Assembly (NCBI GenBank): GCA_037783545.1
Contig: JBBELK010000553.1
Span: forward strand, 62,001-126,000
DNA length: 64,000 nucleotides
Direction: 5' to 3'
From: Henricia sp. BOLD:AAB3569
Taxonomy: Eukaryota > Echinodermata > Asteroidea > Spinulosida > Echinasteridae
In this document: piece after piece, positions 42,227 through 54,565 of the stretch
Position numbering within the stretch: position 1 is the first letter of the stretch
How the letters are laid out: each line of letters begins with the position of its first letter
The notes under the pieces: model-generated
What the model was told of the DNA's origin: nothing
The model's database searches: none
Seen by the model: the letters and a program-made list of their open reading frames with translations, nothing else
Position numbers and translations under genes: made by a program

Positions 42227-44766
42227 CTATATTCCGCACTTGTCCTGAAAAATTGACAGACTTTCGCCGGGAAATGGCCGAGAAATGTCAGAGTTTAGGG
42301 AAAACTGGGCTCGGGCTTCCTGCCTGCTCTGCAGACCGTGGCTGTCCATGTACTCCTGACTCGTGCGCATGCTCCGTCTTGTTTGGGACGGGAATTTGGT
42401 CAAAGTGTGGTCCAAACTTCGTCAAATTTGGAAGTCAAGAAATTTTCCGACGAACTTCAAATTTTGCATGCTCCAAACAGTCTATATTCCGCACTTGTCC
42501 TGAAAAATTGACTGACTTTCGCCGGGAAATGGCCGAGAAATTTCAGAGTTTAGGGAAAACTGCGCTCAGGCTTCCTGCCTGCTCTGCAGACCGTGGCTGT
42601 CCGTGTACTCCTGATCACTCGTGCGCATGCTCAGTCTTGTTTGGGACGGGAATTTGGTCAAAGTGTGGTCCAAACGTCGGCAAATTTGTAAGTCAAGAAA
42701 TTTTCCGACGAACTTCAAATTTTGCATTCTCCAAACAGTCTATATTCCGCACTTGTCCTGAAAAATTGACAGACTTTCGCCGGGAAATGGCCGAGAAATT
42801 TCAGAGTTTAGGGAAAACTGCGCTCAGGCTTTCTGCCTGCTCTGCAGACCGTGGCTGTCCGTGTACTCCTGACTCATGCTTAGTCTTGTTTGGGACGGGA
42901 ATTTGGTCAAAGTGTGGTCCAAACTTCGGCAAATTTGGAAGTCAAGACATTTTCCGACGAACTTAAAATTTGGCATGCCCCAAACAGTCTATATTCCGCA
43001 CTTGTCCTGAAAAATTGACAGACTTTCGCCGGGAAATGGCCCAGAAATTTCAGAGTTTAGAGAAAACTGGGCTCGGGCTTCCTGCCTGCTCTGCAGACCG
43101 TGGCTGTCCGTGTACTCCTGACTCGTGCGCATGCTCAGTCTTGTTTGGGACGGGAATTTGGTCAAAGTGTGGTCCAAACGTCGGTAAATTTGGAAGTCAA
43201 GACATTTTCCAACGAACTTCAAATTGTGCATGCTCCAAACAGTCTATATTCCGCACTTGTCCTGAAAAATTGATAGACTTTTGCCGGGAAATGGCCGAGA
43301 AATTTCAGAGTTTAGGGAAAACTGGGCTCGGGCTTCCTGACTGCTCTGCAGACCGTGGCTGTCTGTGTACTCCTGATCACTCGTGCGCATGCTCAGTCTT
43401 GTTTGGGACGGGAATTTGGTCAAAGTGTGGTCCAAACGTCGGCAAATTTGGAAGTCAATAAATTTTCCGACGAACTTCAAATTTTGCATGCCCCAAACAG
43501 TCTATATTCCGCACTTGTCCTGAAAAATTGACAGACTTTCGCCTGGAAATGGCCGAGAAATTTCAGAGTTTAAGGAAAACTGGGCTCGGGCTTCCTGCCT
43601 GCTCTGCAGACCGTGGCTGTCCGTGTACTCCTGATCACTCGTGCGCATGCTCAGTCTTGTTTGTGACGGGAATTTGGTCAAAGTGTGGTCCAAACGTCGG
43701 TAAATTTGGAAGTCAAGACATTTTCCAACGAACTTCAAATTTTGCATGCTCCAAACAGTCTATATTCCGCACTTGTCCTGAAAAATTGATTGACTTTCGC
43801 TGGGAAATGGCCGAGAAATTTCAGAGTTTAGGGAAAACTGCGCTCAGGCTTCCTGCCTGCTCTGCAGACCGTGGCTGTCCGTGTACTCCTGATCACTCGT
43901 GCGCATGCTCAGTCTTGTTTGGGACGGGAATTTGGTCAAAGTGTGGTCCAAACGTCGGCAAATTTGGAAGTCAAGAAATTTTCCGACGAACTTAAAATTT
44001 TGCATGATCGAAACAGTCTATATTCCGCACTTGTCCTGAAAAATTGACAGACTTTCGCCGGGAAATGGCCCAGAAATTTCAGAGTTTAGAGAAAACTGCG
44101 CTCAGGCTTCCTGCCTGCTCTGCAGACCGTGGCTGTCCGTGTACTCCTGACTCATGCTCAGTCTTGTTTGGGACGGGAATTTGGTCAAAGTGTGGTCCAA
44201 ACTTCGGTAAATTTGGAAGTCAAGACATTTTCCGACGAATTTAAAATTTGGCATGCCCCAAACAGTCTATATTCCGCACTTGTCCTGAAAAATTGACAGA
44301 CTTTCGCCGGGAAATGGCCGAGAAATTTCAGAGTTTAGGGAAAACTGGGCTCGGGCTTCCTGCCTGCTCTGCAGACCGTGGCTGTCCATGTACTCCTGAC
44401 TCGTGCGCATGCTCCGTCTTGTTTGGGACGGGAATTTGGTCAAAGTGTGGTCCAAACTTCGTCAAATTTGGAAGTCAAGAAATTTTCCGACGAACTTCAA
44501 ATTTTGCATGCTCCAAACAGTCTATATTCCGCACTTGTCCTGAAAAATTGACTGACTTTCGCCGGGAAATGGCCGAGAAATTTCAGAGTTTAGGGAAAAC
44601 TGCGCTCAGGCTTCCTGCCTGCTCTGCAGACCGTGGCTGTCCGTGTACTCCTGACTCATGCTCAGTCTTGTTTGGGACGGGAATTTGGTCAAAGTGTGGT
44701 CCAAACTTCGGCAAATTTGGAAGTCAAGAAATTTTCCGACGAACTTCAAATTTTGCATTCTCCAAA

Positions 44767-45775
44767 CAGTCTATATTCCGCACTTGTCCTGAAAAATTGA
44801 CAGACTTTCGCCGGGAAATGGCCGATACATTTCAGAGTTTAAGGACAACTGGGCTCGGGCTTCCTGCCTGCTCTGCAGACCGTGGCTGTCCGTGTACTCC
44901 TGATCACTCGTGCGCATGCTCAGTCTAGTTTGGGACGGGAATTTGGTCAAAGTGTGGTCCAAACGTCGGTAAATTTGGAAGTCAAGAAATTTTCCAACGA
45001 ACTTCAAATTTTGCATGCTCCAAACAGTCTATATTCCGCACTTGTCCTGAAAAATTGACAGACTTTCGCCGGGAAATGGCGGAGAAATTTCAGAGTTTAG
45101 GGAAAACTGCGCTCAGGCTTCCTGCCTGCTCTGCAGACCGTGGCTGTCCGTGTACTCCTGATCACTCGTGCGCATGCTCAGTCTTGTTTGGGACGGGAAT
45201 TTGGTCAAAGTGTGGTCCAAACGTCGGCAAATTTGGAAGTCAAGAAATTTTCCGACGAACTTCAAATTTTGCATTCTCCAAACAGTCTATATTCCGCACT
45301 TGTCCTGAAAAATTGACAGACTTTCGCCGGGAAATGGCCGATACATTTCAGAGTTTAAGGACAACTGGGCTCGGGCTTCCTGCCTGCTCTGCAGACCGTG
45401 GCTGTCCGTGTACTCCTGATCACTCGTGCGCATGCTCAGTCTAGTTTGGGACGGGAATTTGGTCAAAGTGTGGTCCAAACGTCGGTAAATTTGGAAGTCA
45501 AGAAATTTTCCAACGAACTTCAAATTTTGCATGCTCCAAACAGTCTATATTCCGCACTTGTCCTGAAAAATTGACAGACTTTCGCCGGGAAATGGCCGAG
45601 AAATTTCAGAGTTTAGGGAAAACTGCGCTCAGGCTTCCTGCCTGCTCTGCAGACCGTGGCTGTCCGTGTACTCCTGATCACTCGTGCGCATGCTCAGTCT
45701 TGTTTGGGACGGGAATTTGGTCAAAGTGTGGTCCAAACGTCGGCAAATTTGGAAGTCAAGAAATTTTCCGACGAA
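44767..45775 (+). repeat. 516-bp dimer duplication next to the insertion
   Basis: Monomers 44767-45282 are repeated from 45283. Both copies share the private CAGTCTAGTTTGGG change, which creates TAG at 44926-44928 and again at 45442-45444, and the GATACATTTCAG/GGACAACTGGG subtype. The second copy runs up to the inserted element at 45776. Confidence 0.85.
45773..45775. other. Target-site duplication GAA, left copy
   Basis: GAA directly precedes TAGTAGGGTCC and is repeated at 51968-51970 directly after CCCTACTA. Uninterrupted monomers such as the one ending near 43993 read GACGAACTTAAAA, with a single GAA. Only three bases are duplicated. Confidence 0.88.
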
Positions 45776-46575
45776 TAGTAGGGTCCAGAATGGAAGTCCC
45801 GTTCTCGATGTCTTTACCAGAAGTTTTGAAGGTGTTTTCTTATGGATTTGAGGGTGCAAAATACAATGAGAGGGGTCTGACCCATCGAAATATGTGGGGA
45901 ACTCTCGCTAGAGGGCGTTTTTCAAAATGGCCGCCAAAATCACTTAAAATCACCATAACTTGGTCAGTGAAGCACCCAGCAGCACGATTCTGATGTCTAC
46001 ACCCATGTTTTTAGGGTCAAGGAATCCAATAGATCCACTTACAAGAGCCTAGGACCTACCATTCCAAGATGGCTGCCAACATTTCAAAATGGCCGCCAGT
46101 GAAAATTAGTTTTGCCTATATCTCGGGTGCAGACAGTACTAGAAGTATGATTCTGGTGTCTATACCCACTTTTACAGGGTCAAGGAATCCACTGGAATAT
46201 CTCAGAACAGCACAGGACCTCAATATCCAAGATGGCTGCCAAAATTTTAAAAATGGCCACTACTAAAAATGCAGAATTTTGCCTATTTCTTGGTTCCAGA
46301 AGCTCATATAAGTATGAATAAAAGTTTTGATGTATTTTTAAACATATTCGAGGATGCTGAATAAAATGAGACGGGTCTGGGTTTAGGGAAAATGTAGGGA
46401 ACTCTTATAGGGGGCCTAAGTAGGACCTACCAGTCCAAGATGGCTGCCAAAATTTCAAAATGGCCACCAGTGAAAGTCTGTATTGCGAATGATACTCAGC
46501 AACAATACCCAAACAAACTAATAGTTATCCTAATGTAATCAATACAATAATTGACAGTGTTACAGTGGTGCATAC
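45776..46575 (+). repeat. Subterminal region with AAGATGGCTGCC repeats (left)
   Basis: About 0.8 kb of transposon DNA lies between the terminus and the retroelement remnant. AAGATGGCTGCC occurs at 46066-46077, 46229-46240 and 46437-46448. Each is followed by TTTCAAAATGGCC or a close variant, also seen alone at about 45921. Sequence between the repeats is related too: AGGGTCAAGGAATCCA occurs twice, and the AATGAGAGGGGTCTG...GGGAACTCTCGCTAGAGGG block has a diverged partner AATGAGACGGGTCTG...GGGAACTCTTATAGGGG. This indicates old internal tandem duplications. No open frame of note. Subterminal repeats in other DNA transposons can bind transposase; that role is inference. Confidence 0.75.
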
Positions 46576-46613
46576 TGTGACGGCCCGTACGGAAGCTGTT
46601 ACGGCCCGCCACA
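46576..46613 (+). mobile_element. LTR-like remnant, 38 bp (left arm)
   Basis: TGTGACGGCCCGTAC at 46576 begins like an LTR (TG...) and CCGCCACA ends like one (...CA). It stands directly in front of a tRNA-Leu primer-binding site, separated by one T. The 38 bp contain ACGGCCCG twice, so the piece may be an LTR collapsed by deletion between short repeats. A real LTR would be several hundred bp. That it derives from an LTR is inference from its edges and position. Confidence 0.6.
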
Positions 46614-46614
46614 T

Positions 46615-46634
46615 TGGTGGCAGCGGTGGGATTC
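46615..46634 (+). other. tRNA-Leu primer-binding site (left arm)
   Basis: TGGTGGCAGCGGTGGGATTC is the reverse complement of GAATCCCACCGCTGCCACCA, the 3' end plus CCA of a eukaryotic cytosolic tRNA-Leu (from memory of the AAG-anticodon isoacceptor). All 20 bases pair. In LTR retrotransposons this site primes minus-strand DNA synthesis and sits just inside the 5' LTR, as here. It marks the retroelement's 5' end and its orientation (+). Confidence 0.8.
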
Positions 46635-46783
46635 ACCAGTACTATGGATAACTGAAGCGGAGGACAACGGAATAGAGCAGAGGGAGCAAGTCGTACTTAC
46701 ACCGGGGAGACACCAGGTAAAATAGGCCGATTCTGGAGTGGAATTCCGGTACCGAGGGAGCGACTTCTTTCAAGCAGCTGCAT

Positions 46784-47131
46784 GTGTGGAGTACAGCAAC
46801 AAGTGGAGCAGCCAACGTGCTGCAATCAGTCAAAAAAGCAGCCCAGCATCAGTTGTCGCCAATGACATCTACAGTGAATCCCGGAGCGGCTCCAGGAGGA
46901 TTGTCAAGATGGACAACTGATGGGGAAGGGTGGATGAAGCAACCATTGGCAAGCAGCACTACACATATTGAGGGTGGATGGATAGGTGAGCTCGGGGAAC
47001 CAGCCGGAGGATCGCCTATGCTAAATACATTTAGCTCCTCTACTCCAGCGAGCAACGTGCAAATGGCAAGAGCCAAGGCAGAGGGGGCACCCAGGCCACC
47101 TGTAACAATCGAGAAGATCGAAAACTGGTAA
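46784..47131 (+). pseudogene. Retroelement leader / Gag N-terminal fragment (left arm)
   Basis: A 115-codon open stretch lies about 150 bp downstream of the primer-binding site. Its residues are Pro/Ala/Gly/Ser-rich (for example NPGAAPGG and PAGGSPM) with no domain I recognise, which is common for the variable N-terminus of Gag. It ends at TGGTAACC, where the right arm reads TGGTACCC. The stop is therefore a point mutation in this copy. The start is not certain, as several in-frame Met codons exist. It could be untranslated leader rather than Gag. Confidence 0.5.
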
Positions 47132-47248
47132 CCGGAGGAAGCAGGAACAGTTAGAGAACATTCCACCATGAATGTTGGAGTTTCTGCTCCACCGGGAATC
47201 ACTACCGCTAGTGGGGGCTTTCAAAGGCAACCAGGGTAGGGCCTATAC

Positions 47249-47419
47249 GTGACACTGGTTTTCAGCACCACGACGGCAGGATTGCGAACATCCCCAGGGT
47301 ATGCAGCGGCAGCCGGACAGTCTGCACGAGCGGCAAGCCTGAGCACGGCTTTAACTCAAGGCAGACCTTTCGAGATGGCACAATGGAGAGTTGGAAGCGA
47401 GCATGTGTCGACGTTAGAT
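47249..47419 (+). pseudogene. Gag-region middle fragment, cut by the MITE
   Basis: This short open stretch (about 57 codons, including GYAAAAGQSARAASL and FEMAQWRVGSEHVS) continues the same retroelement region in a different frame. It is interrupted at 47420 by the hAT-like MITE. The same stretch is uninterrupted in the right arm (50304-50498, minus strand). Function unknown. Confidence 0.4.
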
Positions 47420-47702
47420 CAGGGGCGGATCCAGGAATGTGAATAAGGGGGCGGGGGGGGGGGGGAGCCAAAGGCCCGAACGCGAGGACCGCAGGCCCGA
47501 ATCCCCCAGCGGCAGGTCTGGGTGGCCTCCCCATGAACATTTTGAAATCAAAGTGCTCCAGATGCGTTTTCCTGCAATTTGGAGACGAAATATTGATACA
47601 CCAACCTTCATCATTTTATATGTTCATAAAATATTTTTTTAGTCTGGCAAAAATAGGGGGGGGGGGGGGCGCCCGGGGCGCCCATGCCTGGATCCGCGCC
47701 TG
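47420..47702. mobile_element. hAT-like MITE, copy 1
   Basis: About 283 bp between CAGGGGCGGATCCAGGAATG and CATGCCTGGATCCGCGCCTG; these ends are inverted repeats matching at 18 of 20 bases. The CAGGGGCGG terminus is typical of non-autonomous hAT elements. GTTAGAT precedes it (47413-47419) and follows it (47702-47708), and occurs once in the unoccupied right arm. hAT duplications are normally 8 bp, so one base may have changed. The element contains G tracts near 47447-47464 and 47656-47669 and encodes no protein. The open frames crossing it are incidental. Confidence 0.82.
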
Positions 47703-47746
47703 TTAGATGAACGATCCAGCGCAAGGGCTCCAGTTTTACGACTAAG

Positions 47747-48156
47747 ATGGAGTCGAGTCAACCACAGCTACCAAAGGTTTCCTCATCAACGAAAATGGGA
47801 GGACTGGCGCCAGGATTGACGGGAGCAACAATTGGAAGCAGGAACCCAGAGAGACCCAGGGCAGAACCAGAAGAGAAGACGGGTGAAGAGGATGAGAAGA
47901 TCCAAAGAGCACAACGAAAGCCGAGCTTTATTCCGGACAGATTTTCAGTGGACCTTCCTTGGAGGGATTACAAGGCTTATTTTGAGGCTTGTGCCGCCAT
48001 CAACGCGCGGACTTCGGCAGAAAAGGCATTTTTCTTGGCAGCAAGCCTAAACGGGCAGGCCCAGCAGGTACTTGGAGATGGGGCACACGGCGAACAAGTG
48101 AGCTACGATGACCTTACTACAAGATTGGAAAGGAGATTTGGTCCCGGGGAACAGGC
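47747..48156 (+). pseudogene. gag: Ty3/gypsy-type Gag fragment, left copy 1
   Basis: About 136 codons from the Met at 47747 read as the N-terminal half of a metavirus-like Gag core. An acidic and basic linker (RPRAEPEEKTGEEDEK) is followed by the family pattern VDLPWRDYKAYFEA, AEKAFFLAASLNGQAQQVL and LTTRLERRFGPGEQA. Gag is the structural protein that packages retroelement RNA. The fragment ends at the arm boundary (48156). The open frame runs on to 48538, but that extension is antisense of downstream gag and not protein sequence. Protease, reverse transcriptase and integrase are absent from the window. Confidence 0.75.
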
Positions 48157-48485
48157 GCGAATTGGCGGGAATGGGATCCATCGGACGACTCTTAACCTCT
48201 CCCCCGCTTTCCGACGTGGACGAATCCACAGGGGCGCTGTATTCACGAAGGAGGGTCATGAGGCACTTTCCCCCCGTCCGTGGATGTGGTCCTGCTGGCT
48301 CCACTTCTTGTTTGCAACACTCTCTTTGCTCCTCGGAGTTGTGGTTCGCATTGCTTTCTCTAGATCAATCATCATTCTATGTAATACGGCAAGTTGTTCC
48401 GACATAGCCTGCGTCTGCCGGTTGAATTCTCTCTTGAGACAGATTCCACGTCCCGGTGGACCCTTGGATTTCTGTCCTGGCGACC
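48157..48485 (-). pseudogene. Gag C-terminal fragment in antisense (tandem copy 1)
   Basis: Immediately after the left arm the sequence is the reverse strand of downstream gag, including the MSEQLAVLHRMMIDLEKAM segment. It is the duplicated copy of the loop sequence at 49282-49610. It is cut at 48485 by the tandem-duplication junction, where it meets ACCTTTCGAGATGG. Confidence 0.65.
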
Positions 48486-48540
48486 ACCTTTCGAGATGGC
48501 ACAATGGAGAGTTGGAAGCGAGCATGTGTCGACGTTAGAT

Positions 48541-48827
48541 CAGGGGCGGATCCAGGAATGTGAATAAGGGGGCGGGGGGGGGGGGGGGCGCCAAAGGCCC
48601 GAACGCGAGGACCGCAGGCCCGAATCCCCCAGCGGGAGGTCTGGGTGGCCTCCCCATGAACATTTTGAAATCAAAGTGCTCCAGATGCGTTTTCCTGCAA
48701 TTTGGAGACGAAATATTGATACACCAACCTTCATCATTTTATATGTTCATAAAATCTTTTTTTAGTCTGGCAAAAATAGGGGGGGGGGGGGGGGCGCCCG
48801 GGGCGCCCATGCCTGGATCCGCGCCTG
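48541..48827. mobile_element. hAT-like MITE, copy 2 (by tandem duplication)
   Basis: This has the same ends, orientation and flanking GTTAGAT (48534-48540 and 48827-48833) as copy 1, about 1.12 kb away. It arose through duplication of the surrounding segment, not a second insertion, because flanks on both sides are copied too. G tracts are a few bases longer here (about 17 G near 48572 and 18 G near 48777). Confidence 0.82.
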
Positions 48828-48871
48828 TTAGATGAACGATCCAGCGCAAGGGCTCCAGTTTTACGACTAAG

Positions 48872-49281
48872 ATGGAGTCGAGTCAACCACAGCTACCAAA
48901 GGTTTCCTCATCAACGAAAATGGGAGGACTGGCGCCAGGATTGACGGGAGCAACAATTGGAAGCAGGAACCCAGAGAGACCCAGGGCAGAACCAGAAGAG
49001 AAGACGGGTGAAGAGGATGAGAAGATCCAAAGAGCACAACGAAAGCCGAGCTTTATTCCGGACAGATTTTCAGTGGACCTTCCTTGGAGGGATTACAAGG
49101 CTTATTTTGAGGCTTGTGCCGCCATCAACGCGCGGACTTCGGCAGAAAAGGCATTTTTCTTGGCAGCAAGCCTAAACGGGCAGGCCCAGCAGGTACTTGG
49201 AGATGGGGCACACGGCGAACAAGTGAGCTACGATGACCTTACTACAAGATTGGAAAGGAGATTTGGTCCCGGGGAACAGGC
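48872..49281 (+). pseudogene. gag: Ty3/gypsy-type Gag fragment, left copy 2
   Basis: This is the tandem duplicate of the fragment 1,125 bp upstream, with the same Met, the same motifs (LPWRDYKAYFEA, RRFGPGEQA) and the same break at the arm boundary. The nearby change GGATCCGTCGG, against GGATCCATCGG in copy 1, is one of only a few differences. It cannot make a complete Gag. Confidence 0.75.
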
Positions 49282-49896
49282 GCGAATTGGCGGGAATGGG
49301 ATCCGTCGGACGACTCTTAACCTCTCCCCCGCTTTCCGACGTGGACGAATCCACAGGGGCGCTGTATTCACGAAGGAGGGTCATGAGGCACTTTCCCCCC
49401 GTCCGTGGATGTGGTCCTGCTGGCTCCACTTCTTGTTTGCAACACTCTCTTTGCTCCTCGGAGTTGTGGTTCGCATTGCTTTCTCTAGATCAATCATCAT
49501 TCTATGTAATACGGCAAGTTGTTCCGACATAGCCTGCGTCTGCCGGTTGAATTCTCTCTTGAGACAGATTCCACGTCCCGGTGGACCCTTGGATTTCTGT
49601 CCTGGCGACCACCTTGGCCCTGCTGCCTCTGCCTCTCGAAGTTGATGAACGATTATGTCTCCAGAGCCGCCCGTATCGCTTTATCTAAGGACTTTTGGTG
49701 CGCTCTGAAGATACCCGCTCGCACTTCTGCATCTTGGATAGCATGCTTGAAATGCCCCTGGGCGAGTCTTTCCCTCAAACCTCTAGGGAGCTCTGGGTAT
49801 GCCAATTCGATAAGCCGTCGGATGCTGTGTCCGAGAACTTGTAGACCTGCACTGACTCCCCTCGTCGTACTCCGCAGTTCCGATAGGAATCTCTCG
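49282..49896. other. Single-copy part of the foldback loop
   Basis: About 615 bp separate the inner end of the second left unit from the right arm. On the minus strand it is the 3' part of the gag region described above. The right arm and loop therefore give one continuous gag, while the left arm joins that gag in inverted orientation at AACAGGC. No other gene is visible. Confidence 0.75.
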
Positions 49897-50253
49897 GCCT
49901 GTTCCCCGGGACCAAATCTCCTTTCCAACCTTGTAGTAAGGTCGTCGTAGCTCACTTGTTCGCCGTGTGCCCCCATCTCCAAGTACCTGCTGGGCCTGCC
50001 CGTTTAGGCTTGCTGCCAAGAAAAATGCCTTTTCTGTCCACCTGTTGATGGCGACACAAGCCTCAAAATGAGCCTTGTAATCCCTCCAAGGAAGGTCCAC
50101 TGAAAATCTGTCCGGAATAAAGCTTGGCTTTCGTTGTGATCTGTGGATCTTCTCATCCCCTCCACCCGTCTTCTCTTCTGGTTCTGCCCTGGGTCTCTCT
50201 GGGTTCCTGCTTCCAATTGTTGCTCCCGTCAATCCTTGCTCCAGTCCTCCCAT
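49381..50253 (-). pseudogene. gag: Ty3/gypsy-type Gag, longest copy (right arm into loop)
   Basis: On the minus strand this holds the most complete Gag in the element. The order is the linker and RFSVDLPWRDYKAHFEA, then FFLAASLNGQAQQVLGDG, then RRFGPGEQAERFLSELRST and SIRRLIELAYPELPRGLRERL. The C-terminal stretch has a likely helical segment (MSEQLAVLHRMMIDLEKAM) and ends ESAS. Two frame breaks are visible. One is an extra G after GDG (GATGGGGGCACACGG against GATGGGGCACACGG in the left copies). The other is at ALET-stop near 49655, after which the frame with QLREAEAAGP continues. The QQDHIHGRGES segment sits where a CCHC zinc knuckle would be expected, but no cysteines are present. The family call rests on the WxxYxxxF, LxGxAxxxL and RFGPxxQ pattern. 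Confidence 0.7.
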
Positions 50254-50497
50254 TTTCGTTGATGAGGAAACCTTTGGTAGCTGTGGTTGACTCGACCCCC
50301 ATCTTAGTCGTAAAAACTGGATCGTTCATCTAACGTTGACACATGCTCGCTTCCAACTCTCAATTGTGCCATCTCGAAAGGTCTGCCTTGAGTTAAAGCC
50401 GTGCTCAGGCTTGCCGCTCGTGCAGACTGTCCGGCTGCCGCTGCATACCCTGGGGATGTTCGCAATCCTGCCGCCGTGGTGCTGAAAACCATTGTCA

Positions 50498-50929
50498 CTA
50501 TGGGCCGTACCCTGGTTGCCTTTGAAAGCCCCCACTAGCGGTAGTGATTCCCGGTGGAGCAGAAACTCCAACATTCATGATGAAATGTTCTCTAACTGTT
50601 CCTGCTTCCTCCGGGTACCAGTTTTCGATCTTCTCGATTGTTACAGGTGGCCTGGGTGCCCCCTCTGCCTTGGCTCTTGCCATTTGCACGTTGCTCGCTG
50701 GAGTAGAGGAGCTAAATGTATTTAGCATAGGCGATCCTCCAGCTGGTTCCCCGAGCTCACCTATCCATCCACCCTCAATATGTGTAGTGCTGCTTGCCAA
50801 TGGTTGCTTCATCCACCCTTCCCCATCAGCTGTCCATCTTGACAATCCTCCTGGAGCCGCTCCGGGATTCACTGTAGATGTCATTGGCGACAGCTGATGC
50901 TGGGCTGCTTTTTTGACTGATTGCAGCAC
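50498..50929 (-). pseudogene. Retroelement leader / Gag N-terminal fragment (right arm)
   Basis: This is the inverted partner of the left-arm fragment. It stays open for 143 codons because the left arm's TAA is TAC here. It ends GGGTACGGCCCATAG. The next stretch of the same protein-like sequence (50304-50498, with AAAAGQSARAASL) is in another frame. If these are parts of one Gag they are separated by a frameshift. I recognise no domain in this part. Confidence 0.5.
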
Positions 50930-51106
50930 GTTGGCTGCTCACTTGTTGCTGTACTCCACACAGCCGCTTGAAAGAATTCGCTCCCTCGGTACCGGAATTC
51001 CACTCCAGAATCGGCCTCTTTCACCTGGTGTCTCCCCAGTGTAAGTACGACTTGCCCCCTCCGCTCTATTCCGTTGTCCTCCGCTTCAGTTATCCATAGT
51101 ACTGGT

Positions 51107-51126
51107 GAATCCCACCGCTGCCACCA
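51107..51126 (-). other. tRNA-Leu primer-binding site (right arm)
   Basis: This is the inverted copy of the 20-nt site, intact and identical to the left one. The retroelement leader is therefore in the opposite orientation in this arm. Confidence 0.8.
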
Positions 51127-51127
51127 A

Positions 51128-51165
51128 TGTGGCGGGCCGTACCAGCTTCCGTACGGGCCGTCACA
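51128..51165 (-). mobile_element. LTR-like remnant, 38 bp (right arm)
   Basis: On the minus strand it reads TGTGACGGCCCGTAC...GGTACGGCCCGCCACA. It differs from the left copy by one base (GCTGGTACGG against GCTGTTACGG). It is flanked by the same GCATAC on the transposon side, so the retroelement insertion point is the same in both arms. Confidence 0.6.
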
Positions 51166-51967
51166 GTATGCACCACTGTAAATTATTGTATTGATTACAT
51201 TAGGATAACTATTAGTTTGTTTGGGTATTGTTGCTGAGTATCATTCGCAATACAGACTTTCACTGGTGGCCATTTTGAAATTTTGGCAGCCATCTTGGAC
51301 TGGTAGGTCCTACCTAGGCCCCCTATAAGAGTTCCCTACATTTTCCCTAAACCCAGACCCGTCTCATTTAATTCAGCATCCTCGAATATGTTTAAAAATA
51401 CATCAAAACTTTTATTCATACTTATATGAGCTTCTGGAACCAAGAAATAGGCAAAATTCTGCATTTTTAGTAGTGGCCATTTTTAAAATTTTGGCAGCCA
51501 TCTAGGATATTAAGGTCCTGTGCTGTTCTGAGATATTCCAGTGGATTCATTGACCCTGTAAAAGTGGGTATAGACACCAGAATCATACTTCTAGTACTGT
51601 CTGCACCCGAGATATAGGCAAAACTAATTTTCACTGGCGGCCATTTTGAAATGTTGGCAGCCATCTTGGAATGGTAGGTCCTAGGCTCTTGTAAGTGGAT
51701 CTATTGGATTCCTTGACCCTAAAAACATGGGTGTAGACATCAGAATCGTGCTGCTGGGTGCTTCACTGACCAAGTTATGGTGATTTTAAGTGATTTTAAG
51801 TGATTTTGGCGGCCATTTTGAAAAACGCCCTCTAGCGAGAGTTCCCCACATATTTCGATGGGTCAGACCCCTCTCATTGTATTTTGCACCCTCAAATACA
51901 TAAGAAAACACCTTCAAAACTTCTGGTAAAGACATCGAGAACGGGACTTCCATTCTGGACCCTACTA
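51166..51967 (-). repeat. Subterminal region with AAGATGGCTGCC repeats (right)
   Basis: This is the mirror image of the left subterminal region. GGCAGCCATCTT-type cores lie near 51288-51298, 51497-51505 and 51656-51667; one has mutated to GGCAGCCATCTAGG. It contains no gene that I can support. Confidence 0.75.
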
Positions 51968-51970
51968 GAA
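51968..51970. other. Target-site duplication GAA, right copy
   Basis: This is the second copy of the 3-bp duplication, followed by CTTAAAATTTTGCATGATCG, which completes the interrupted satellite monomer. Confidence 0.88.
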
Positions 51971-51993
51971 CTTAAAATTTTGCATGATCGAAA

Positions 51994-54565
51994 CAGTCTA
52001 TATTCCGCACTTGTCCTGAAAAATTGACAGACTTTCGCCGGGAAATGGCCCAGAAATTTCAGAGTTTAGAGAAAACTGGGCTCGGGCTTCCTGCCTGCTC
52101 TGCAGACCGTGGCTGTCCGTGTACTCCTGACTCGTGCGCATGCTCAGTCTTGTTTGGGACGGGAATTTGGTCAAAGTGTGGTCCAAACTTCGGCAAATTT
52201 GGAAGTCAAGACATTTTCCGACGAACTTAAAATTTGGCATGCCCCAAACAGTCTATATTCCGCACTTGTCCTGAAAAATTGACAGACTTTCGCCGGGAAA
52301 TGGCCCAGAAATTTCAGAGTTTAGAGAAAACTGGGCTCGGGCTTCCTGCCTGCTCTGCAGACCGTGGCTGTCCGTGTACTCCTGACTCGTGCGCATGCTC
52401 AGTCTTGTTTGGGACGGGAATTTGGTCAAAGTGTGGTCCAAACTTCGGCAAATTTGGAAGTCAAGACATTTTCCGACGAACTTAAAATTTGGCATGCCCC
52501 AAACAGTCTATATTCCGCACTTGTCCTGAAAAATTGACAGACTTTCGCCGGGAAATGGCCCAGAAATTTCAGAGTTTAGAGAAAACTGGGCTCGGGCTTC
52601 CTGCCTGCTCTGCAGACCGTGGCTGTCCGTGTACTCCTGACTCGTGCGCATGCTCAGTCTTGTTTGGGACGGGAATTTGGTCAAAGTGTGGTCCAAACGT
52701 CGGTAAATTTGGAAGTCAAGACATTTTCCAACGAACTTCAAATTGTGCATGCTCCAAACAGTCTATATTCCGCACTTGTCCTGAAAAATTGATAGACTTT
52801 TGCCGGGAAATGGCCGAGAAATTTCAGAGTTTAGGGAAAACTGGGCTCGGGCTTCCTGCCTGCTCTGCAGACCGTGGCTGTCTGTGTACTCCTGATCACT
52901 CGTGCGCATGCTCAGTCTTGTTTGGGACGGGAATTTGGTCAAAGTGTGGTCCAAACGTCGGCAAATTTGGAAGTCAAGAAATTTTCCGACGAACTTCAAA
53001 TTTTGCATGCCCCAAACAGTCTATATTCGGCACTTGTCCTGAAAAATTGACAGACTTTCGCCGGGAAATGGCCGAGAAATTTCAGAGTTTAAGGAAAACT
53101 GGGCTCGGGCTTCCTGCCTGCTCTGCAGACCGTGGCTGTCCGTGTACTCCTGATCACTCGTGCGCATGCTCAGTCTTGTTTGTGACGGGAATTTGGTCAA
53201 AGTGTGGTCCAAACGTCGGTAAATTTGGAAGTCAAGACATTTTCCAACGAACTTCAAATTTTGCATGCTCTAAACAGTCTATATTCCGCACTTGTCCTGA
53301 AAAATTGATAGACTTTCGCTGGGAAATGGCCGAGAAATTTCAGAGTTTAGGGAAAACTGCGCTCAGGCTTCCTGCCTGCTCTGCAGACCGTGGCTGTCCG
53401 TGTACTCCTGATCACTCGTGGGCATGCTCAGTCTTGTTTGGGACGGGAATTTGGTCAAAGTGTGGTCCAAACGTCGGCAAATTTGGAAGTCAAGACATTT
53501 TCCGACGAACTTAAAATTTGGCATGCCCCAAACAGTCTATATTCCGCACTTGTCCTGAAAAATTGACAGACTTTCGCCGGGAAATGGCCCAGAAATTTCA
53601 GAGTTTAGAGAAAACTGGGCTCGGGCTTCCTGCCTGCTCTGCAGACCGTGGCTGTCCGTGTACTCCTGACTCGTGCGCATGCTCAGTCTTGTTTGGGACG
53701 GGAATTTGGTCAAAGTGTGGTCCAAACGTCGGTAAATTTGGAAGTCAAGACATTTTCCAACGAACTTCAAATTGTGCATGCTCCAAACAGTCTATATTCC
53801 GCACTTGTCCTGAAAAATTGATAGACTTTTGCCGGGAAATGGCCGAGAAATTTCAGAGTTTAGGGAAAACTGGGCTCGGGCTTCCTGCCTGCTCTGCAGA
53901 CCGTGGCTGTCTGTGTACTCCTGATCACTCGTGCGCATGCTCAGTCTTGTTTGGGATGGGAATTTGGTCAAAGTGTGGTCCAAACGTCGGCAAATTTGGA
54001 AGTCAAGAAATTTTCCGACGAACTTCAAATTTTGCATGCCCCAAACAGTCTATATTCCGCACTTGTCCTGAAAAATTGACAGACTTTCGCCGGGAAATGG
54101 CCGAGAAATTTCAGAGTTTAAGGAAAACTGGGCTCGGGCTTCCTGCATGCTCTGCAGACCGTGGCTGTCCGTGTACTCCTGATCACTCGTGCGCATGCTC
54201 AGTCTTGTTTGTGACGGGAATTTGGTCAAAGTGTGGTCCAAACGTCGGTAAATTTGGAAGTCAAGACATTTTCCAACGAACTTCAAATTTTGCATGCTCC
54301 AAACAGTCTATATTCCGCACTTGTCCTGAAAAATTGATAGACTTTCGCTGGGAAATGGCCGAGAAATTTCAGAGTTTAGGGAAAACTGCGCTCAGGCTTC
54401 CTGCCTGCTCTGCAGACCGTGGCTGTCCGTGTACTCCTGATCACTCGTGCGCATGCTCAGTCTTGTTTGGGACGGGAATTTGGTCAAAGTGTGGTCCAAA
54501 CGTCGGCAAATTTGGAAGTCAAGAAATTTTCCGACGAACTTAAAATTTTGCATGATCGAAACAGT
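51994..54565 (+). repeat. 255-bp triplet and two 1,029-bp units after the insertion
   Basis: Monomers starting at 51994, 52249 and 52504 are near-identical 255-bp copies with GGCCCAGAAATTTCAG and TTAGAGAAAACTGGG. A four-monomer 1,029-bp unit then occurs twice (about 52508-53536 and 53537-54565), with markers TTGATAGACTTTTGCC, GGCTGTCTGTGTAC and CTTTCGCTGGGAAATGG. The same four-monomer order is present once left of the insert, from about 42989 to 44017. Confidence 0.82.

Follow-up and report, generated by a model that had tools for sequence, protein, structure and literature searches.

A palindromic foldback element in a Henricia satellite array, probably of the XPG-transposase superfamily best matched by Academ

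A palindrome inserted in satellite DNA of Henricia sp. is one member of a dispersed family whose copies insert whole and duplicate 3 bp of target sequence. It is probably a non-autonomous foldback element of the superfamily whose transposase carries an XPG-type nuclease, best matched by Academ, and among the XPG-transposase elements of this genome palindromes arose at least twice.

Results

Architecture of the element and its insertion site

The window (the whole 64-kb stretch of DNA analysed) reads as a single array of a 258-bp satellite (249 copies, 87% matches) that holds a palindrome of 6,192 bp at positions 45776-51967, flanked on both sides by GAA (Table 1). Identity between the outer 1,644 bp of the left arm and 51967-50328 is 97.0%; inward of a small MITE-like insert nested in the left arm, pairing resumes for another 0.43 kb at 94.4%. 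The paired arm thus totals about 2.1 kb, the length given in the initial annotation, whose description of the arms as near-perfect was slightly generous. The halves differ in length because the left one contains a tandem duplication of 1.13 kb (99.3%) as well as the nested 283-bp insert. With the element excised and one GAA kept, the joined flanks (1,200 bp) match the array elsewhere at 98.75% without a gap, and the rejoined site is spanned by 218 of 229 HSPs, so that both the GAA duplication and the exact restoration of the satellite on removal, as first proposed, are borne out. This satellite has received at least two insertions of elements of this kind (in the window and on contig C609).

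The outermost portion of each arm is a shared end of about 0.8 kb (on the left, sequence identity extends by eye to 46576). Its subterminal repeats contain seven AARATGGCNRC motifs, starting at 45924, 46066, 46086, 46229, 46250, 46437 and 46457, against a mean of 0.004 in 500 shuffles for a motif picked post hoc from the sequence; the repeats are putative transposase binding sites. Inward of the shared ends lies retroelement leader and gag-like DNA, including a 20-mer present once per arm that we take to resemble a tRNA-Leu primer-binding site. Five of ten relatives of the gag-like ORF (query, the sister copy L011) contain zf-CCHC, which together with the 20-mer upholds the earlier reading of retroelement DNA in both arms. 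Pfam scans of two gag ORFs from the window gave no match, and those of three sister gag ORFs gave Retrotrans_gag below the cut-off (E 0.06-0.19). The element had also been described as carrying no transposase, and a tblastn search (E 0.001) that took 4 of 48 transposase relatives as queries found no transposase piece in it. An Rfam scan of 44000-54000 gave no match reaching the gathering score.

Table 1. Features of the window element and its flanks
Feature	Position in window	Strand
Left GAA target duplication	45773..45775	.
Left shared end, about 0.8 kb, starting TAGTAGGGTCC, common to types A and B	45776..46579	+
Seven AARATGGCNRC motifs in subterminal repeats	45924..46467	+
Retroelement leader and gag-like DNA, left arm, first part	46580..47419	+
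20-mer, primer-binding-site-like, left arm	46615..46634	+
Tandem duplication, unit 1 (1.13 kb), left half	47365..48490	+
Nested MITE-like insert, TTAGAT either side, missing from right arm	47420..47702	+
Tandem duplication, unit 2, left half	48486..49615	+
MITE-like insert copy 2, product of the tandem duplication	48541..48827	+
Palindrome centre, unpaired	49282..49896	.
Retroelement leader and gag-like DNA, right arm	49897..51161	-
Identical 20-mer, right arm	51107..51126	-
Right shared end, inverted copy of left shared end	51162..51967	-
Right GAA target duplication	51968..51970	.

Dispersed copies with their own target duplications

A search of the host genome (740.7 Mb in 2,104 contigs, the window lying on contig C553) with the first 201 bp of the element gave 36 matches, 33 of them spanning at least 172 bp and representing 12 two-ended elements (24 ends) and nine single ends. 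The single ends were excluded from the duplication test because the partner end is absent, lost to a contig end or unfetched; two pairs of them (L024/L025 and L026/L028) each look like one locus split over two contigs. Exact 3-bp duplications flank 10 of the 12 two-ended copies (GAA, TGA, TAC, ATT, TAT, TAA, TTC, CTG, TAT and CAT), while lengths of 2 and 4-7 fit none and a length of 1 fits four of 12. When left and right flanks were taken from different copies, 3 of 132 combinations gave a 3-bp match, and six shifted comparisons gave 0 of 12 in five cases and 1 of 12 in the other. The two failures (L012 and L018) have one altered end base each, scored as part of the element. L012 and L013, at two sites on the same contig with unrelated flanks, are 99.5% identical over 4.4 kb, a sign that suggests recent movement.

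Together with the gapless rejoined array, these duplications confirm that the whole palindrome moved as one unit. The initial annotation held that a lack of other copies, or copies without 3-bp flanking duplications, would point to a one-off rearrangement; the 33 ends and the copy-specific duplications at unrelated sites rule such a rearrangement out. Palindromes in arrays are difficult to assemble, but with many copies at unrelated sites, each with its own duplication, the probability that the palindrome is a one-off rearrangement or a satellite assembly artefact is practically negligible.

A shared end with variable interiors

Across the fetched elements (of 21 with an end match) the outer 0.8 kb or so is common, partial where the copy is broken, and the interiors differ (C570 and C127 were left out of the interior comparison). 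In type A (the window element, L010-L015, L018 and L023) the shared end leads into the retroelement leader and gag-like ORFs. In type B (L009, L016, L017, L022, L024/L025, L026/L028 and C871) it leads into a zinc-finger ORF and then an XPG-like ORF, present in both arms save for L022, which has a truncated right arm; four type B copies that align end to end are 94.0-96.8% identical over 3.5-3.9 kb. L027, which has no left outer end, has a third kind of interior, with mirrored N-terminal transposase exons past the point at which type B jumps to the nuclease part; the exon match is modest, its best tblastn E value being 0.001 against 0.013 for the best of 20 shuffles. The gag-bearing composite is thus one among several forms of the family.

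End-region identity is 98.5-100% among type A arms, 96.1-99.1% among type B arms and lowest, about 95%, for L027, and in a tree of this region the type A arms form a single clade, set apart from type B by a branch with support of 0.995. Type A copies differ in how many of their arms hold a MITE at one site: none in L010, one in the window element, L012, L013, L015 and L018, and both in L011, L014 and L023. The fetched copies included none that combined a gag-bearing arm with an arm holding gene pieces. An autonomous copy within the 20.5-kb C871 copy was considered and is not supported, the long ORFs there belonging to a KolobokP-like multimer and a LINE; a KolobokP-type element is seemingly nested in it.

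Full-length relatives with an XPG-type nuclease

The gene pieces of type B have full-length relatives in the same genome (e.g. a 1,466-aa ORF) that fuse a transposase-like fold to a nuclease domain of the EXO1/FEN1/XPG type. Pfam gave no match above cut-off for the 1,466-aa ORF and none for three type B ORFs. The best named protein relatives point tentatively to echinoderms. For the element with the 1,466-aa ORF, the 3' end was set where copies cease to match and the 5' end by inverted subterminal sequence, yielding ends of TAGACTG...CAGTCTA about 8.9 kb apart on C71. Both termini were read for three full-length copies, each of which is flanked by a 3-bp duplication (GTA, TTG and ATG); a fourth (C1037), which diverges from the others ahead of the 5' end, was left unscored. 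The full-length 3' terminus, TAGACTGTGGGCC, occurs at 32 sites and is absent from the opposite end, which differs past TAGACTG. The terminal inverted repeat is short, with no counterpart of the 0.8-kb inverted ends of the foldback.

The foldback and the XPG-transposase elements share an end class, with TAG...CTA termini. In the host assembly we found no autonomous copy bounded by the termini of the window element itself.

A second palindromic family

Among weaker XPG matches, 43 of 136 rows picked by hand resolve into 20 close pairs, divergent in all 20. The only pair read whole (L059) is a 3.2-kb element with 94% identical arms and an XPG piece in both. Its end has 40 matches, which make up 17 inward-facing pairs (15 of 3.4-4.7 kb, one of 0.6 kb and one of 11 kb) and six single ends. 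The family terminus, TAGTTAGGTCC, is close to that of the window element, and exact 3-bp duplications flank 10 of 11 copies (10 of the 17 pairs together with L059 were scored), or nine of 10 loci since C254 and C95 are one locus, against 3 of 110 in a cross-pair control.

The part of the gene nearest the terminus is the 3' part in the L059 family and the 5' part in type B. With opposite gene ends outermost, the two palindromes arose separately, giving at least two origins. We count only these two as independent, because type A may have gained the gag of its second arm by arm exchange. A single origin, in which type A derives from a type B palindrome by retroelement insertion in one arm and conversion of the other, is a tenable though less probable account: conversion does occur, as the MITE in neither, one or both arms of type A copies indicates, and the type A arms form one well-supported clade, but none of the fetched copies pairs gag with gene pieces across its arms, and the L059 family is certainly separate.

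Discussion

Superfamily assignment

The window element has the long inverted arms, short unique centre and movement as a unit of the foldback class. Academ elements are recognized by a DDE transposase with an XPG-type nuclease. The name, a best match, is based on this criterion together with one published statement that Academ makes 3-bp duplications (PMC5199201). Academ DNA transposons are credited to Kapitonov and Jurka 2010 in PMC4455052. The foldback has the same duplication length, and its relatives have an XPG-type nuclease fold along with a fold that may be that of a DDE transposase, whereas the window element itself has no gene, is palindromic with two copies of one end, and bears gag. 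The initial annotation could name no superfamily with confidence and suggested that the family may be undescribed. The data are compatible with undescribed families within an Academ-type superfamily, while an undescribed superfamily is unlikely given the XPG pieces in sister copies and the full-length relatives with TAG...CTA ends and 3-bp duplications. Among the matches listed, no paper paired Academ with foldback terms, and a search for Academ with palindromic elements returned only a paper on KolobokP; neither result is proof that such elements are unpublished.

PIF/Harbinger and EnSpm/CACTA also make 3-bp duplications, in the former confined to TWA-like targets, and EnSpm/CACTA termini start CAC. 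The foldback duplications are varied and include GAA, ATT, TTC, CTG and CAT, which do not match a TWA-type target, and the termini of the window element are TAGTAGGGTCC. Zator makes 3-bp duplications as well (as mentioned in PMC10045372), a length that fits the foldback copies. We nevertheless regard it as very unlikely that the foldback belongs to one of these three superfamilies with the XPG-transposase pieces and gag as passengers. Type A shows that foreign DNA can be taken up, but XPG pieces occur in two palindromic families that differ in sequence and have similar ends, and full-length XPG elements of the same genome share the 3-bp duplications and TAG...CTA ends.

The Mutator-kind foldbacks FB, Tetris and Tm1 resemble the window element in their long inverted arms, variable middle and non-coding character, and Tetris further in inserting in or near satellite DNA (PMC4079207). 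Their duplications are 8-10 bp (for Tetris, same source), whereas here 3 bp is the only length that fits and XPG-transposase pieces are present. KolobokP, according to PMC9587614, combines long direct terminal repeats, a DDD/E transposase and a His-Me finger nuclease gene; it is similar in pairing long terminal repeats with a transposase and a nuclease, differs in that the repeats are direct and the nuclease is a His-Me finger, and is unrelated to the window element.

Origin and movement

Galileo, of the P superfamily, has a P-type transposase and a different duplication length, whereas here the gene is of XPG type and coding DNA lies within the arms. Like the window element, Galileo has long inverted ends in which several copies of a motif make up internal repeats (PMC3573991, PMC3688188), and long repetitive ends are known in Tetris also (PMC4079207). 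The 0.8-kb ends could by analogy be native long inverted repeats of the parent, with arms extended inward by conversion and no fold-back, and arm-to-arm transfer is indeed observed in this family. This is quite unlikely, however, as the arms extend beyond the shared ends to take in pieces of genes (zinc-finger and XPG coding sequence in type B, exons for the N terminus in L027, an XPG piece in L059), and the full-length relatives have no such long inverted ends.

Most likely, instead, copying of one native end produced the palindrome, which then moved by cut-and-paste in trans. First, the internal part of the gene would have been deleted from an ancestral element. A strand with a break or nick may then have folded back, primed its own synthesis and been copied to its end, giving two inverted copies of one native end with adjoining DNA; such an event would account for arms that contain coding DNA and for centres left unpaired over some 0.3-0.6 kb. 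In type A, the leader and gag of an LTR retrotransposon would have replaced the gene pieces, now in both arms. Transposase supplied in trans would recognize the ends, with the subterminal repeats as possible contact sites, and insert the whole palindrome with a 3-bp stagger. The arms probably continue to exchange sequence, as the one nested MITE in no, one or both arms of different copies suggests.

More speculatively, palindromes might be a recurrent by-product of XPG-nuclease transposition, with hairpinned or flapped ends copied back, double-ended palindromes outcompeting the autonomous parent in the manner of snap-back defective genomes, and the FEN1/EXO1-like domain processing, or failing to process, the hairpin. 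We consider this unlikely on balance, and link to the hairpin role of that domain the yeast result that impaired resection or Rad27/FEN1 leads to more foldback and inverted insertions (reported in PMC11724301).

Foldback elements are mostly assigned to Mutator, with exceptions (PMC4079207). Here two separate palindromic families in one genome appear to trace to the XPG-nuclease, Academ-type superfamily. That their forms retain different parts of the parent gene, with the 5' part outermost in one and the 3' part in the other, makes the origin of foldbacks testable by comparison. We know of no test of the role of the XPG nuclease in such transposons, and the recurrent palindromes are a possible clue to that role.

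Sequence content of the foldback copies

The AARATGGCNRC motif, repeated in both arms of the window element, resembles the YY1/Pho binding site, and two such motifs also lie in the arm of L059, a fully read copy of the second palindromic family. The MITE-like insert nested in the left arm of the window element contains G-runs. Two foldback copies enclose LINE-type reverse-transcriptase ORFs (see table). The insert splitting the foldback copy on contig C871 carries three sets of Mutator-like transposase ORFs (PF20700) and two sets of His-Me finger endonuclease ORFs, and looks like a KolobokP-type multimer (for KolobokP, PMC9587614).

Features in the window and in fetched genome loci (L)
Feature	Location	Detail
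LINE-type reverse-transcriptase ORF, 1,064 aa	L020:6069-9263	Pfam RVT_1; inside foldback copy
LINE-type reverse-transcriptase ORF, 422 aa	L017:1745-3010	judged by eye; inside foldback copy
AARATGGCNRC motifs	window 45924-46467	seven per arm
MITE-like insert	window 47420-47702	TTAGAT at either side
Insert interrupting C871 foldback copy	L019:673-9969 + L020:1-4082	ORF content

Insertion sites and a possible short form

Window 1-64000 reads as a single 258-bp satellite array broken by the foldback at 45776-51967. The same satellite hosts a second-palindromic-family copy on contig C609 (L079/L080), as the window contains words from its two flanks 194 and 153 times. Elsewhere in the host assembly, two ends of that family face inward 0.6 kb apart (G000:C832:951648-952261), a pair that resembles a miniature derivative of the family.
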